In this document: positions 5,577-54,638 of the stretch, piece by piece
Layout of the letters: each line of letters begins with the position of its first letter
Position numbering within the stretch: the first letter of the stretch is position 1
Source of the DNA: Apostichopus japonicus
Lineage: Eukaryota > Echinodermata > Holothuroidea > Aspidochirotida > Stichopodidae
DNA: 64,000 nucleotides
Reading direction: 5' to 3'
Assembly (NCBI RefSeq): GCF_037975245.1
Contig: NC_092580.1
Location: forward strand, 21,686,501 to 21,750,500
Made by a program: the position numbers and the translations under genes
The notes under the pieces: generated by a model
What the model was told of the DNA's origin: nothing
Databases searched by the model: none
What the model saw: the letters and a program-made list of their open reading frames with translations, nothing else

Positions 5577-6836
5577 AAAGGAATTGTCTGGTGGAAGATT
5601 TTGATCCATTGTCTTTGTAGTTATTATTTTTCTCTTTCTAACCATGTAAAAATTGTCCCAATTCGACGTTTTCTTCTTGTGGAAATCTGGTTTTCAAATT
5701 AACCAGTTTCTCACCAAAAGTACCGTTTGTTCGAACGCTTCAATATGGTGATTGACGTAGTGGTTGCAGATAGGCAAAACAGGCGACTTGAAGTTAGCAC
5801 TCCCAATTCCGCAGCAAATAAACTCACGTGTAAGCACATTGGATTGCCTCATATATATAACGTACATACTCGCGAACGTATATACTACGATGCTCAGTTG
5901 GTGTACTTGTATAGCGTTACACATAGTACACTCACACTCAAACCACAGTTCATTAACTGTTCTTCGAAATCGCTGAAATAAAATTCACGGATCAAATTAA
6001 CAGTAAAAGGAAACTTGTAAAGTATTCGTTAAACCGAAAGATGAAACTTGGCGGAATCGATGTCATCGCAGAACTGTCCGATTGTAAACGTTAGAGTCTA
6101 GCCTATACACGCGAACATTCTTCGCGCTGGAGCTGGATACCGCGATGTGTAAACAACGAAGAGCCTGCTGTTAAAACTTATCTTGTGTTTCACAAAGACC
6201 ACGAAACCACCGATCTACTACATATATGGCGGCTTAAGGAGTTTTTTAAATCATATCTAATTTATAAGAAATTTCACCGGAAATTATTGAAGAAATTGAT
6301 CGAATCGTTGTCAGAGCAGAATGTAGCACTGAGAAGCTTAGGCTTCGCAGAACTGTCCGATTGTCAACGTTTGAGTATAGCCTACATGCGAACATTTTTC
6401 GCGTTGGAGCTGGATAGCGCGATGTATAGCCTAAACAACGAAGAGTCTGCTGTTAAAATTTACCTTGTGTTACACAAAGACCACGGAACCACCGATCAAG
6501 TACATGCCGGCTTAAGGAGTTTTTGAAAACATATCTAATTTTAAAGAAATTTCACCGGAAATTAAGGAAGAAATTTATCTGTATACAAACGCTGTTTTTG
6601 TTGTGATTGCCGTATAGGTACTGTGCGGAGGTGGGTTATGACGCAATCTGCTATGGCAGAGCTGACGTCACGTATTGTACTGTTCAAATCATATTTGAAA
6701 TGTCTATCCATAACGATTAAAAAATCGTTTCTCTGTCAAACGCAACATTAGCGTTCTCATACTTTGACAACATGTTTAGAAAATTATTTACTATTTTTTA
6801 CTTCAACTTCTTTGGGCCACCAGACAATCCTTTTAA
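5577..6836. mobile_element. TTAA-flanked inverted-repeat element (piggyBac-like MITE)
   Basis: The left end reads TTAA then AGGAATTGTCTGGTGG; the right end is AAGGATTGTCTGGTGG on the other strand, again bordered by TTAA. A TTAA target and short ends fit piggyBac-type transposition, although the ends are not the canonical CCCT type. The interior has no transposase. It contains a tandem duplication with 279-bp spacing, which produces the 113-codon frame at 6185-6526. Confidence 0.55.
6055..6576 (+). repeat. Tandem duplication, spacing 279 bp
   Basis: GCAGAACTGTCCGATTGT occurs at 6068 and 6347. The two units stay alignable through CACAAAGACCACG and AAATTTCACCGGAAATTA. Divergence is moderate, so the duplication is not recent. 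Confidence 0.85.
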
Positions 6837-22290: not shown

Positions 22291-22780
22291 ATTTTTCCCT
22301 TCCCGACTCCCCCCCCCCAAAATATAATAATTTGTAACTGGCCATGAAAACCCAATGAAACGCAGTCAGATCATTTCACAAACACCTTTTCAATTAAAAT
22401 GAGCGATCCAATATGAACACCGCCATTCATAATTTAATAATTATATTTTATTCAAACTGAAATCAGTCTTTATCAACTGTTTAATTTTATTTTCCCATTT
22501 TACGGTGTAAGAATATACAATAGTCTTGCTATTTTTCCCCCTCTTCCCCCACCCCCTAACAAATCATTTGTACCTGGCCATGAAAACCAAAAATAAAACG
22601 CAGCCAGATCGTTTCACAAACACATCTTCAATAAAAATGAGCGATCCAACATGAACATCGCCATTAATAATTTATTCATTATATTTTATTCAAACTGAAA
22701 CAGTCTTCATCAACTGATAAGTATATTTCGATAAATTTTATTTTCCCCTTTTACCGTGCAAGAATATACAGTAGTCTAGC
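22291..22780 (+). repeat. Tandem duplication of about 240 bp
   Basis: Units 22291-22530 and 22531-22780 share CTGGCCATGAAAAC, ATGAGCGATCCAA, TATATTTTATTCAAACTGAAA and AAGAATATACA. The C-rich start of each unit has changed length. There is no coding sign. Confidence 0.9.
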
Positions 22781-22802
22781 GATGAATACTACTACAATGT
22801 AG

Positions 22803-30260: not shown

Positions 30261-30312
30261 GTATGCAGGCGAGTATCCAGGGGGGGGCGTTGGGGGCGCG
30301 CGCCCCCCGGGT

Positions 30313-30421
30313 AAGAAAAAGGAGAGGAAAAAAAAGAGAAGAAAAAAGGGAAAAAAAAGGGGGAAAAGAGGAGGAGGAAGGAAGGGAAAAGAAAAAGAAG
30401 GAGAGAAAAAAGAGGAGGGAG
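30313..30421 (+). repeat. 109-base uninterrupted purine tract
   Basis: Every base from 30313 to 30421 is A or G. Tracts this long can form triplex (H-) DNA. It lies just inside the left end of the 30266-32140 element and explains the lysine/arginine-rich frame there, which is not a gene. Confidence 0.9.
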
Positions 30422-30839
30422 TAGAAGAAATATGCCAAGACATCGGGAAGAGAAAGACGAACAGTGACATCATTACAGCGCTGATCCCTAATATATACAC
30501 AGGGTAGCCAGTGATGGATCGAGGATGTCGGAAGGGGCGTGCACATCACCCTACCCCTTTCACCGACAACTCCATTTTTGACGTTTCCATTTTTCCTCTC
30601 TCACTAATGTATCTATATATATACTATATATGGTCTACCATAACGCGTGTGTGTGTATGGACGCCTTAAACAATTGTGCTATGAAACCAACTGTGGCTGG
30701 TCTTGAACTCGACCGAGTCGTCGGGGTACATGACGCATTTCGGGAAGGGGGCGACCGCCCCCCCCAGCACATATTATTTTTATGATATCGCTAGTAAATT
30801 CAATATAGAAAATGCTTAGATGCAACTAACAAGGCAGTG

Positions 30840-30984
30840 GAAGTGTCATATCCAGCGATCTGGGAGGCATTTTCGGCCAAAATTTTCTTGTACGCTTCGC
30901 GCCAACCCGTGGTGGCGCTACGCTTAGATAGTTTACCTACAGGCTTCGCCCCTCCCTTGGCAAAGTATTCGCTATACGCGCCTG
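30840..30984 (+). repeat. Shared element 3' module, copy A
   Basis: It contains TTTTCTTGTACGCTTCGCGC and GTGGCGCTACGCTTAGATAG and finishes at CTATACGCGCCTG. It is homologous to copies at 32004-32140 and, on the other strand, 48904-49012. The apparent peptide ALRLDS in all three is a by-product of this DNA repeat. Confidence 0.75.
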
Positions 30985-32003
30985 TTCGAATTTGTAAAGC
31001 ACACAGCAGATATCAGTGAGCATGAAAATTGAGGTTCCATGATGAACAGCCTCAAAACTGTCGATGTGTGTAGTCATAGTAACCCATTTGATTTTGGGGG
31101 CTGTAACAACTTACCCGAAAAATATAACCTAAATTGTTCGCGCGCTGTGCGCGCGTTTAACATGTTACTGTCAATATCATATAAGTAAGCATCGGTTATT
31201 ACATCGCATGCCATCGTGTACTGTATACGGTTCGTGGAAATTGCGCAGTATACCGCGGGATGCTGTAAACAACAAAATGTCTTATGTACATGGAGAAAGA
31301 GCATGGAGGTCCAATTATGTAAAATTCTCTTTTACATTAGTAATGTCGAATTAGTCGGCCAAGCTTACAACTTTATTTTAATTATCAAGGAGATATTTTT
31401 TAAACTATTCATTTCCTTTAGCTACATCATTGCAATTTATTTTTCTTTCAGTAGGAGCCCCCGTCTCCTACGCCTATGTGTGTAGTGTTCGGTTCAAGGA
31501 AATATCTGCTATTTTTTCATTTCCTTCAATCAAGTTTTATAATAGCCGTTATAAGAGGTTTTAATATTTCTACACCAATAAATTAGTGTGTCTGAATTTT
31601 CGAAAATTTCCTGACCAACATTCTTCATCATACTTCCCTCTACTCGTGTAATTTTTACCAGTCTGTTAGGGGTTCAAGGAGGTTTTTCTATATTGGTTGT
31701 CCATAGATGACATTTTTGCCAATATTATGGGTATGTTTTGAAGTGAGTTTATTCACGAGAAATGTGAATTTTCAAATTCTGAACAAATAATGGGCTGAAA
31801 ACCTTCAAAAGTGCACTGTCGGGTATTGTGGACCGCGACGTAGAATCACCTACAAAAGCAATGATCCACAGGAGATGCGATGAGGTCGAACATGATGTGT
31901 GACTGGTGAGAATCTTCAAAAAGGTTATGGATGGAAAGAAAACTATTGGGAAATACTTGGTTCTCAGGCAAAAGTCTACATCTGGTTGCTCATTTTCAAG
32001 CCC

Positions 32004-32140
32004 GAGAAGTGCCATTTCCGGTGATCTGGGGGGTATCAAAACCAGAAACTTTCTTGTACGCTGCGCGCCAACTGATGATGGCGCTCCGCTTAGATAGTTA
32101 TTCGCACCCCCCGGGTTAAAAAATCCTGGATACGCGCCTG
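32004..32140 (+). repeat. Shared element 3' module, copy B
   Basis: This is the same module as copy A, with TTTCTTGTACGCTGCGCGCC and GGCGCTCCGCTTAGATAG. It ends in the intact inverted terminus CCTGGATACGCGCCTG. Confidence 0.75.
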
Positions 32141-32145
32141 GTATG

Positions 32146-38591: not shown

Positions 38592-38940
38592 CAGGGACGT
38601 AGCCAGGGAGGGAGCAATGGGGGAGCGATCGGTCCCACCCCTCCCTGTCCCCCTTTGAGAACCCCGAGAAATAAAATTTAACTAAAAGCAGGAAATATCA
38701 GGTTGAAGCATGGAGCTATAAACAGATCCATGGTTAAGAAAGCTAAGCGACCCTTCTCGATCTTTCCCCTGGAAGTTCGTCTGCTACGAAATACAACTCT
38801 TATTATTGTTTATTTCCTGCAACGTGGGAGGTATTTTGGGCAAACAATTTCTTTGTAATAATAATGCTCCCTTTGTGAGAAATGCCCTATTAAATTTCTG
38901 TCCCCCCCCCCTCCCCTTCAAATTTCTGGCTACGTCCCTG
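38592..38940. mobile_element. Short hAT-type MITE
   Basis: This 349-bp element has perfect 15-bp inverted ends CAGGGACGTAGCCAG / CTGGCTACGTCCCTG and a perfect 8-bp duplication GGTTCAGG (38584-38591 and 38941-38948). Its ends differ from those of the 48718-50060 element at two of 16 positions. It lies about 530 bp upstream of the testin-like start exon. It has no coding capacity. Confidence 0.88.
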
Positions 38941-47953: not shown

Positions 47954-48853
47954 CTGTAAAAGAGGACAGAAATAAATCAAATCAAATAGGCTAAATTATT
48001 TCTGCATCAGCTACCAACCACAGAAACATGAGCTGTACAATTGATGGACCACGATCAGAAAAGAAAAATAGAGAAAACTGGCAGAAGCTTTGGTCATCAA
48101 TGTTTGAGGTATGCATATTGATCAAGAATTGATGTTTCTTTCAGTTTGATAACCTGTGCACTAACCTTCAGTCAAGTTGTACACATATCATTGTGTTTAG
48201 TTGGGAAACACTTCTTACAGCAACAAATTCACCAATTGGATTATTAAAGTACCCCTAAATTATATAAGCCTAAGTCTAATTCACATCTTGTCTGGCAAGT
48301 GGTCTTAATCTCACACATGTCACGAAAGTTTGCTTTGAGAAACTGGGACATGAAAAACTGCCTACAGAGGGATGGAACCATACAGCTTTGGTAATATATC
48401 TGCAAGCATTTCGAACTCAGGGAACATAAAATTTAACAAAAAATTTGTGGGAAAGTTTACCACTCGTGCTGCATTTCTTGACCCAGGCGGAAGGATTGTC
48501 TGACATGTTTTGCCTATGGCCTTCATCCCTTGGGAGTGTGGGGGGGGGGCAAGGCCTTAGTATAATTCATATGATTTGTATTGATATTCCCAATGCATTA
48601 TATATGCATTTTTGGAGAATCTGGAATAGAATACTTCCTTCTCTATATCAGTTGCACGATCAAACAAGGTGTACGTAAATGGGACCTGAGCAAACTTGCG
48701 ACCACTGACTTATGTTGCAGGGGCGTATCCAGGATTTTCCAATAGGGGGGGCGCCAGGCATGAATGATCGCCGTCCTGGGGGATGGGTCTAAGGGGAGGG
48801 GTGTACAATTTTTGCTTTCAAAGAAGGGCTGAAATGCAAAATGGTGTCATATG

Positions 48854-49697
48854 CATGGGCGGCGATCCGTACTTCCGAGTGGGGGGGGGGATATGACCTT
48901 GTTGACTATCTAAGCGTAGCGCCACCATGAGTTGGCGCGAAGCGTACAAGAAAATTTTGGGATTAACAAACCCTCTAGATGGCCGGAAACGGCACTTCCC
49001 GAGGCTTCCAAGCGGCATATACCCAACTTTAAAATAGGGATGTCATGTCCGAAATATCTCATAATCAGGATCCAAAATACTTTTTTTTTTAATTTCGGGT
49101 GTTATTTTGGGAAAATTGCCCCTGTCAATCTTGTTTCAGGCGCAACGTTAGAATGTTCGAGAGCTCTGTTATATTATTCGATGAAGAAAATGGCCTCATG
49201 CAGGCTATTATAGGCCTATACACATGCAATACACAATTACACATAGTTACATTCCTAGGTACCGATTGCTAGGGCATCCAGGTGAAACGTGTATTAAGCA
49301 TTACCCTGGTTACATGAGATTCTCAGCTGTTCGAGGGAACATGTACGTGTGTAGGCCTACTATAGGGCCTATATGAATACTATGAGGGTGCATATATGTA
49401 CTATATCAATACCGTGGGCGCAATAATACATTTTGTTGTTATAGGGCCAATGAAGCCTACAGTCAACTATTTTTGCTTTATAAAGACGCTTTATTTGAAA
49501 AGATCGCACTGCGTTTATGGTAGGCGAGAAATGAAGCTAAAAAAGAGCCGTACATTAACGAAGATGCATAAATGTAGGCATGAAAATATTCTTATCCCTG
49601 GCATTTGGTGGGGGGGGGGGGATATGGTGCATTACATCCCCTCCACCCATTTTCATGGGGGGATATATCCCCCCTCCACCCAGGATCGCCGCCCATG
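48854..49697. mobile_element. Inner element with CATGGGCGGCGATCC ends
   Basis: Perfect 15-bp inverted repeats bound an 844-bp segment. CATATG occurs directly outside the left end (48848-48853) and two bases outside the right end (49700-49705), so it may be a target duplication or part of longer ends. It contains the shared module at 48904-49012. Confidence 0.5.
48904..49012 (-). repeat. Shared element module, copy C
   Basis: The reverse strand reads TTTTCTTGTACGCTTCGCGC and GGTGGCGCTACGCTTAGATAG-like sequence. Here the module is followed by the CATGGGCGGCGATCC-type end rather than CAGGCGCGTATCCAGG. Confidence 0.75.
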
Positions 49698-49950
49698 GCC
49701 ATATGTGATCCATTTTTCGACCTTAATAATAAGCAACATTTCCAGTAAATATGGACACAAAATGCACAATTTAGTATGGCTGGCATGTCATTTAGTGTTT
49801 ATAGTGATAATACAAACACAATTACCATCTATGTTTCTAAAACTATTATGCCACCGAACTTCGCCAGAACCTTTTTTTGGCAAACAAAAAATAAAGCATA
49901 CGGGAGGGGGGGGGGTTGAGCGATCACCGACATCTCACATAAAGGTCGTC

Positions 49951-49986
<36 letters not shown>

Positions 49987-50149
49987 AAACTTTTTTTTTT
50001 TTTGGTGACGGCCAATAGGGGGGGCGCGCGCCTGTTGCGCCCCCCCTGGATACGCCCCTGTGTTGTGGTAGTAATAATATAGGCCATTATAATTCATAGT
50101 TATCGCACACCACACTGTACAAACTACAACTACTAACTAGTACAGGGCC

Positions 50150-52736: not shown

Positions 52737-53806
52737 CATCACAATAATGATAACATGTCACCTTGTGCCGTCGAGTCGTGTCCGACCCCTGGTGATGACC
52801 ATGACTTTAATCCTCCAATCCTTCCGGCTCCTGGTTGCCCCTCGAAGTCTATCCAGAGTCAACCCAGTCGCCTGCTTGACACCATCCATCCATCGTGCTC
52901 GTAGCCTGCCCCTCTTTCGTGAACCATCACCCATTCCCACCATTAATGATTTTTCCAGGGAGTCGTCCGCCCGCATGATATGACCGAAAAACTTTAGTTG
53001 TTGCCTCAGGATCTGTGCTTCCAGTGGAAGTGAGAGTTTTATTTGTTCCAAAATCGAGATGTTTGTTCTGTGTGCAGTCCAAGGGACTCTCAATAGCCTG
53101 CGCCAGCACCATAATTCAAAACTGTCTATTCTTTCCCTCATTCCCTTCGTTATTGTCCAAGATTCACTCCCATAGAGCACAACTGGGAAAACTAGTACTT
53201 TCATCAGTTGACTCTTCGTTAATAATGAGATTGCTTTGTCCTTCCAGATCTTGTTTAACCCCGTCACAGCAGATCTCCCAAGAGCTAACCGTCTCACAAT
53301 CTCCCCCTTACAGGTACCATTGTCATCAATTCTAGAACCGAGAAAGTTAAAGTCGTGTACTATTTCAACTTTGTTTCCACCCAAAATAATTTTGTCCAGC
53401 TCCTCTGTGCACATAACCTTGGTCTTCTTTAGGTTCAGGTGTAGACCAGCCTGAGTGCTATGTGTCTGCACACGTTCCATTAGATTAAGGAGGTCTTCTT
53501 TGCTTTCTGCGAGCAGTGTGGTGTCATCAGCATATCTGAGGTTGTTGACTCTTCTGCCACCTATCTTCACCCCTAGCTCTACATTGTCTAGTTTGGCTTG
53601 TCTCATTATGTACTCGCTATAAAGGTTGAAAAGGTAAGGTGAAAGGATACACCCCTGTCGAACTCCCTTGCCAATGTTGAAATTTTCTGTATCCCCATAT
53701 TCGGTTCGAACTTTCGCTTCCTGTTCATTATATAATGATTTGATCACATGCACTAGGTGCATGTACAGTACACCAATTATGAAGGATGTCCCATACTGAA
53801 TTTTGG
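52737..53806 (-). mobile_element. 5'-truncated LINE insertion, candidate 8-bp target duplication
   Basis: The RT frame ends only about 20 bases before a simple 3' end. AAGCACAG occurs at 52729-52736 and again at 53807-53814, which would bracket the insertion as a target-site duplication. This is inference; the clade (RTE-like) is a guess from the RT C-terminus. Confidence 0.5.
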
Positions 53807-53822
53807 AAGCACAGTGGGTCAA
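52758..53822 (-). CDS. Non-LTR retrotransposon reverse transcriptase, 5'-truncated
   Basis: This 354-codon frame has no internal stop. It has the RT motifs GKGVRQGCILSPYLFNLYSE and YADDTTLLAES (the YADD active site), then LKKTKVM and FLGSRID. The C-terminal part has SFELWCWRRLLRVPW, FFGHIMRADDSLEKSLM and RGRLRARWMDGVKQATGL. That C-terminal module is typical of RTE/BovB-like elements, so this clade is my best guess. The endonuclease and the first RT blocks are missing; the first 25 or so codons before VIKSLYNEQEAKVR look degraded. It is a dead-on-arrival copy but young, given the intact frame. Confidence 0.85.
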   Translation of the reverse strand: MTHCASKIQYGTSFIIGVLYMHLVHVIKSLYNEQEAKVRTEYGDTENFNIGKGVRQGCILSPYLFNLYSEYIMRQAKLDNVELGVKIGGRRVNNLRYADDTTLLAESKEDLLNLMERVQTHSTQAGLHLNLKKTKVMCTEELDKIILGGNKVEIVHDFNFLGSRIDDNGTCKGEIVRRLALGRSAVTGLNKIWKDKAISLLTKSQLMKVLVFPVVLYGSESWTITKGMRERIDSFELWCWRRLLRVPWTAHRTNISILEQIKLSLPLEAQILRQQLKFFGHIMRADDSLEKSLMVGMGDGSRKRGRLRARWMDGVKQATGLTLDRLRGATRSRKDWRIKVMVITRGRTRLDGTR

Positions 53823-54638
53823 AAGTCAGTATGTCAAGCAACAGAAGGAGGTCTTATACTACTGTAAGGTTAGCAATCCCCTACTATTTAAAGATATCCC
53901 TGGTGACAGACCCATTCCATTGTGAGTGTTAAGATGTCATTCACTTTCCAAAATATTTGAAGTTGGTGACGACATTGTTCTCAATCCGCCTTTTACGTAT
54001 TGAGGTCAAGACCTCTCCTGGTGCATGCATCCAGTTAATGTTTTGCTACATTTTCAAATGTTTTGATGGAACACCAATGCTTTTGTTTGAAGTTTTCATT
54101 CCCATATTTTGGAAGAAAAGGACATGTGATTGTTTGCTACACAATAGTACATAAGAAAATTGTAGTTTTCTTCTGCAATTGTATTTGTTATGAAATATCC
54201 ATATTTAAAAATGAAATTATAGTTAAATATTAAAACAAAAACTAGAAAATCAATGCAACACATATTTGCTAAGCTTAAACATGGTGAAATTAGTGACACA
54301 TAATCAGTCATGTTTGCATGCCTGGTAACACATGGTAGTAAAAACAAAAAAAGTGCAACAAACTGCATGGCTGGCGTAAACTGTTTATTAGTCGTTGCTT
54401 GAAATACTTGAGTTGACCATGTTAGTTCTTCTTACTCTACTGGGTATTTACCAAATTGTTTATACCACCTGGTTCAAATTAACAGCTATCATACTTGAGA
54501 GAGTGGAGTGAAAAATGCGCTACAATGCATAGTCAGTTACTCAATGTAAAGTTTTAATAATGCGATATGCCCATGTGCTATTTCATACCTATACTTAAGC
54601 TATCAACACAGTACAGGATTAAAATATTCAGTTTGGGT

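Follow-up and report, generated by a model that had tools for sequence, protein, structure and literature searches.

Two elements with hAT-like ends are flanked by 5-bp repeats

Elements with short inverted ends beginning CAGG occur in a 64,000-nucleotide stretch of Apostichopus japonicus DNA (hereafter the window), and two of them raise the question of which transposase could have moved sequences with such ends while leaving target duplications of only 5 bp. CAGG-type ends are hAT-like and are short in non-autonomous hAT elements. The usual hAT duplication is 8 bp, as described in PMC12730594.

The first element, A, spans 48718-50060 (1343 bp, no transposase detected), and its terminal inverted repeats, CAGGGGCGTATCCAGG at 48718-48733 on the plus strand and its partner at 50045-50060 on the minus strand, agree at 16 of 16 positions. 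TGTTG stands on either side, at 48713-48717 and 50061-50065, and only five of eight positions match when the flanks are read in an 8-bp register, in keeping with the earlier note's description of 48713-50065 as perfect 16-bp ends with a duplication of 5 rather than 8 bp. About 490 bp of the interval is A's own sequence, the remainder being a second element, N, nested within it. The other element, B, lies at 30266-32140 (1875 bp, no transposase detected) in reverse orientation relative to A. Its ends, CAGGCGAGTATCCAGG and CAGGCGCGTATCCAGG, agree at 15 of 16 positions, GTATG occupies 30261-30265 and 32141-32145, and the 8-bp register yields a single match in eight; the near-identity of its ends to those of A and the GTATG bracket had both been noted earlier and were borne out.

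We then asked how often such ends and flanks arise by chance. With up to three mismatches allowed, the end motif occurs at six sites in the window, all of them belonging to the paired ends of A, B and a third element, C, whereas 100 shuffled sequences gave a mean of 0.08 sites and a maximum of one. Among 400,000 position pairs drawn at random, 598 (0.15%) had exactly identical 5-bp flanks and 26 had exactly identical 8-bp flanks. The earlier argument that two independent 5-bp matches are improbable by chance is thus given figures, approximately 0.0015 for each and 2e-6 for A and B jointly. Among 118 inverted-repeat pairs in the window (perfect arms of at least 11 bp within 4 kb, simple-sequence seeds excluded), two, A and C, have an exact flank repeat of at least 5 bp; N is among the 118 and has no exact flank repeat, and B falls outside the set because its arms are broken at position 7. 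Pairing the left flank of each of these four elements with the right flank of another, 12 combinations in all, produced no exact repeat between 3 and 10 bp, whereas self-pairing produced one in A, B and C and none in N.

These controls bear directly on the possibility that A and B are ordinary 8-bp hAT elements whose duplications decayed, or elements that arose through rearrangement, the 5-bp matches being accidental. Both elements do resemble typical non-autonomous 8-bp hAT elements in their short CAGG-type inverted ends and in yielding no transposase, only two copies are at hand, and 8 bp is the common hAT length. Against this stand the poor 8-bp registers, the joint chance probability of the two exact matches and the empty cross-pairings, and we consider such an origin very improbable; it is C and N that fit the typical 8-bp pattern better.

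A and B probably belong to one family

With B reversed, the left end of A and the right end of B share 20 of their outermost 21 bases, and 30 when 37 bases are compared, and the right end of A matches the left end of B at 81% over 43 columns. Beyond the inverted repeats (bases 17-50) the latter comparison scored 13, whereas shuffles averaged 4.4 and none of 1000 reached 13; it was the strongest among the 28 end pairs tested. The A left/B right comparison beyond the 16-bp end was not significant by itself (p 0.096, 1000 shuffles), and no end of C or N showed significant similarity to an end of A or B past the inverted repeat (lowest p 0.079), all of these short comparisons being weakened by the G-rich composition of the end regions. 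The matches at the two ends of A and B agree in a single orientation, and from their sequences we regard the two elements as probably members of the same family. The longest stretch of similarity that the A interval has with B, 96% over 56 nt at an internal site of B, was dropped as proof of a single family as it falls inside N and not in A proper; it is accordingly the ends that link A to B.

Elements with apparent 8-bp duplications share the window

Element C (38592-38940, 349 bp) has ends CAGGGACGTAGCCAG, perfect over 15 bp and matching at 15 of 16 positions, with the 8-bp sequence GGTTCAGG on each side. The earlier note had presented C as a relative of A and B with an 8-bp duplication. The flanks do match at eight of eight positions; however, the left flank is a GGTTCA tandem, and the 8 bp may alternatively reflect three units of that array with a duplication of just 2 bp, GG, which softens the second part of the claim. 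The kinship is also weaker than had been suggested: the ends of C differ from those of A by two and three positions per 16, and C gave no blastn match to A, to B or elsewhere in the window (E 1e-3), so that C is only weakly related to A and B.

The nested element N (48854-49697, 844 bp), which the earlier note had not recognized, has perfect 15-bp ends, CATGGGCGGCGATCC, and its flanks GTCATATG and GCCATATG are identical at seven of eight positions in the 8-bp register, a level of at least 7/8 that only 0.086% of 300,000 random pairs attain. The same letters alternatively allow a 6-bp CATATG repeat whose right-hand copy is displaced by 2 bases. These flanks raise the prospect that two transposase lineages with similar ends coexist here, one making 5-bp duplications at A and B and the other making 8-bp duplications at C and, with different ends, at N. 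Such coexistence would add to a common origin of A and B rather than compete with it. The 8/8 and 7/8 flank identities of C and N argue for it, as does the lack of significant similarity to A and B past the inverted repeats; the tandem at C, the inexact flanks of N with their 6-bp alternative, and a block of approximately 100 bp that N has in common with B argue against it, and we hold the two outcomes to be evenly balanced.

A subterminal block is common to N and B

The block lies at 48905-49007 (plus strand) in N, 51 bp inside the left end, and recurs at two sites in B. One, at 31998-32098 on the minus strand, is 42 bp inside the right end and matches N at 82% over 103 nt. The other, the internal site that accounts for the 96% match, is at 30840-30933 on the minus strand and lies 52 bp inward of CAGGCGCGTATAGCGA, a degenerate end-like sequence at 30969-30984 (minus strand). 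Pairwise, the three block copies agree at 54, 49 and 47 of 56 positions. Every copy contains the motif AGCG three times, which approximately 1% of shuffles reach, and all three retain an inverted repeat of GCGCCA and TGGCGC separated by 8 nt, although both motifs were picked after the block had been viewed and their figures are descriptive. Judged from its sequence and its position near the ends, the block is likely a putative subterminal protein-binding region.

Were the block a transposase-binding site, a closely related lineage may have switched its duplication from 8 to 5 bp, or back, with DNA recognition retained. We consider this unlikely; if true, the stagger would be traceable to a few transposase changes. 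Copying of the block from one element to another, unrelated one is just as plausible. We also evaluated a shorter element running from 30266 to the internal end-like sequence at 30984 on the minus strand, and the flanks of this pairing showed no exact repeat between 2 and 12 bp (one of five and five of eight positions matching), leading us to regard the sequence at 30984 as a degenerate internal copy. The presence of this second end-like sequence together with a block copy inside B suggests that B may be composite.

Searches for a transposase and for related copies

We scanned the 25 stop-to-stop frames of at least 60 aa that overlap A, B or C and found no Pfam match above cut-off, and hence no transposase domain, in any of them, a result covering 25 of the 59 element frames, such that small transposase remnants among the 34 frames of 40-59 aa could be missed. 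Sub-cut-off matches to DUF6615 (E 0.0086, inside B) and Ragweed_pollen (E 0.025, overlapping C) were read as chance. The autonomous partner that the earlier note had proposed looking for did not emerge within the window, where none of the 72 stop-to-stop frames of at least 75 aa outside the elements contains a hAT domain. The sole above-cut-off match outside the elements is a reverse transcriptase fragment at 52761-53825 on the minus strand (RVT_1, E 1.1e-19), probably the remnant of a LINE-type retrotransposon. No Rfam family reached its gathering score anywhere in the window.

Searches of viral, prokaryote and phage collections returned no paired copies, and since these collections are not meant for animal DNA, their silence says little. 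The 16-mer end was found in 10 viral contig stretches, once per stretch, which we regard as chance; a 20-mer from the block matched no viral stretch, a 23-letter block pattern matched no prokaryote stretch, and A had no match among phages. A full-text literature search with four end strings likewise gave no match.

A and B as probable members of the hAT5 group

Duplications of 5 bp also occur in Transib and ProtoRAG, whose ends start with CAC. Another superfamily of this kind, for example a Transib- or RAG-like one, with CAGG-type ends by coincidence, could in principle account for A and B, particularly as the scanned frames supply no transposase to exclude it. The ends of A and B, however, begin with CAGG rather than CAC, and they resemble those of C, whose flank repeat has the hAT length of 8 bp; we therefore judge an origin outside hAT quite unlikely.

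Within hAT, duplication length is known to vary by lineage. Families of hAT that duplicate 5 bp go by the name hAT5 (PMC12730594, citing Kapitonov and Jurka 2007); the same source places them within a lineage to which Blackjack and further animal hATs belong, and PMC9004415 describes hAT5 in some invertebrates and fish. PMC12730594 further names hAT6 and hAT7, groups with 6- and 7-bp duplications, from which A and B differ in having 5. The hAT-5 element of PMC6004678, as described in that source, has an 8-bp duplication and was rejected as a match. A and B are like hAT5 in their 5-bp duplication, exact in both copies, and in their short terminal inverted repeats; they are unlike it in that no transposase was found here, and the assignment is drawn from duplication length together with the CAGG-type ends.

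We consider it likely that A and B are non-autonomous copies of one cut-and-paste family that duplicates 5 bp, most probably within the hAT5 group of hAT, a reading drawn from two copies seen in one 64-kb window. Because it is the ends and the duplication length, not protein, that support hAT membership, we infer the superfamily from sequence features. A transposase encoded elsewhere would have recognized 16-bp ends of the CAGGSGCGTATCCAGG type, presumably moving the elements in trans, and would have cut the target with a 5-bp stagger when inserting them, with gap repair at those cuts giving TGTTG and GTATG. N would have inserted later, splitting A.

The earlier note had offered, as one of two alternatives, that a previously described hAT lineage with 5-bp targets is active here. 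Such a lineage is indeed described (hAT5, in PMC12730594 and PMC9004415) and provides the best reading of A and B; its present activity is not supported, with no transposase in the scanned element frames, A interrupted and B carrying a degenerate internal end. Both elements look inert now, A being split by N and B containing its second degenerate end and block copy.

If assigned to hAT5, A and B would extend the 5-bp branch of hAT by a probable non-autonomous family. They plausibly form a new family within that already published branch, and the known picture is unchanged because hAT5, hAT6 and hAT7 are previously described groups (PMC12730594). Elements with 5-bp and with 8-bp duplications but similar ends lie together in this single 64-kb stretch, which makes the host genome a reasonable setting for studying what determines the target stagger of hAT transposases.

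Other repeats in the window

Two-copy tandem repeats occur at 6066-6579, with a spacing of approximately 278 bp, and at 22302-22783, with a spacing of approximately 236-251 bp. The palindrome TAGGCCTA, which we take to be common in some marine invertebrates, is present at nine sites in the window, or 18 when both strands are counted compared to approximately 1.4 expected from base composition.
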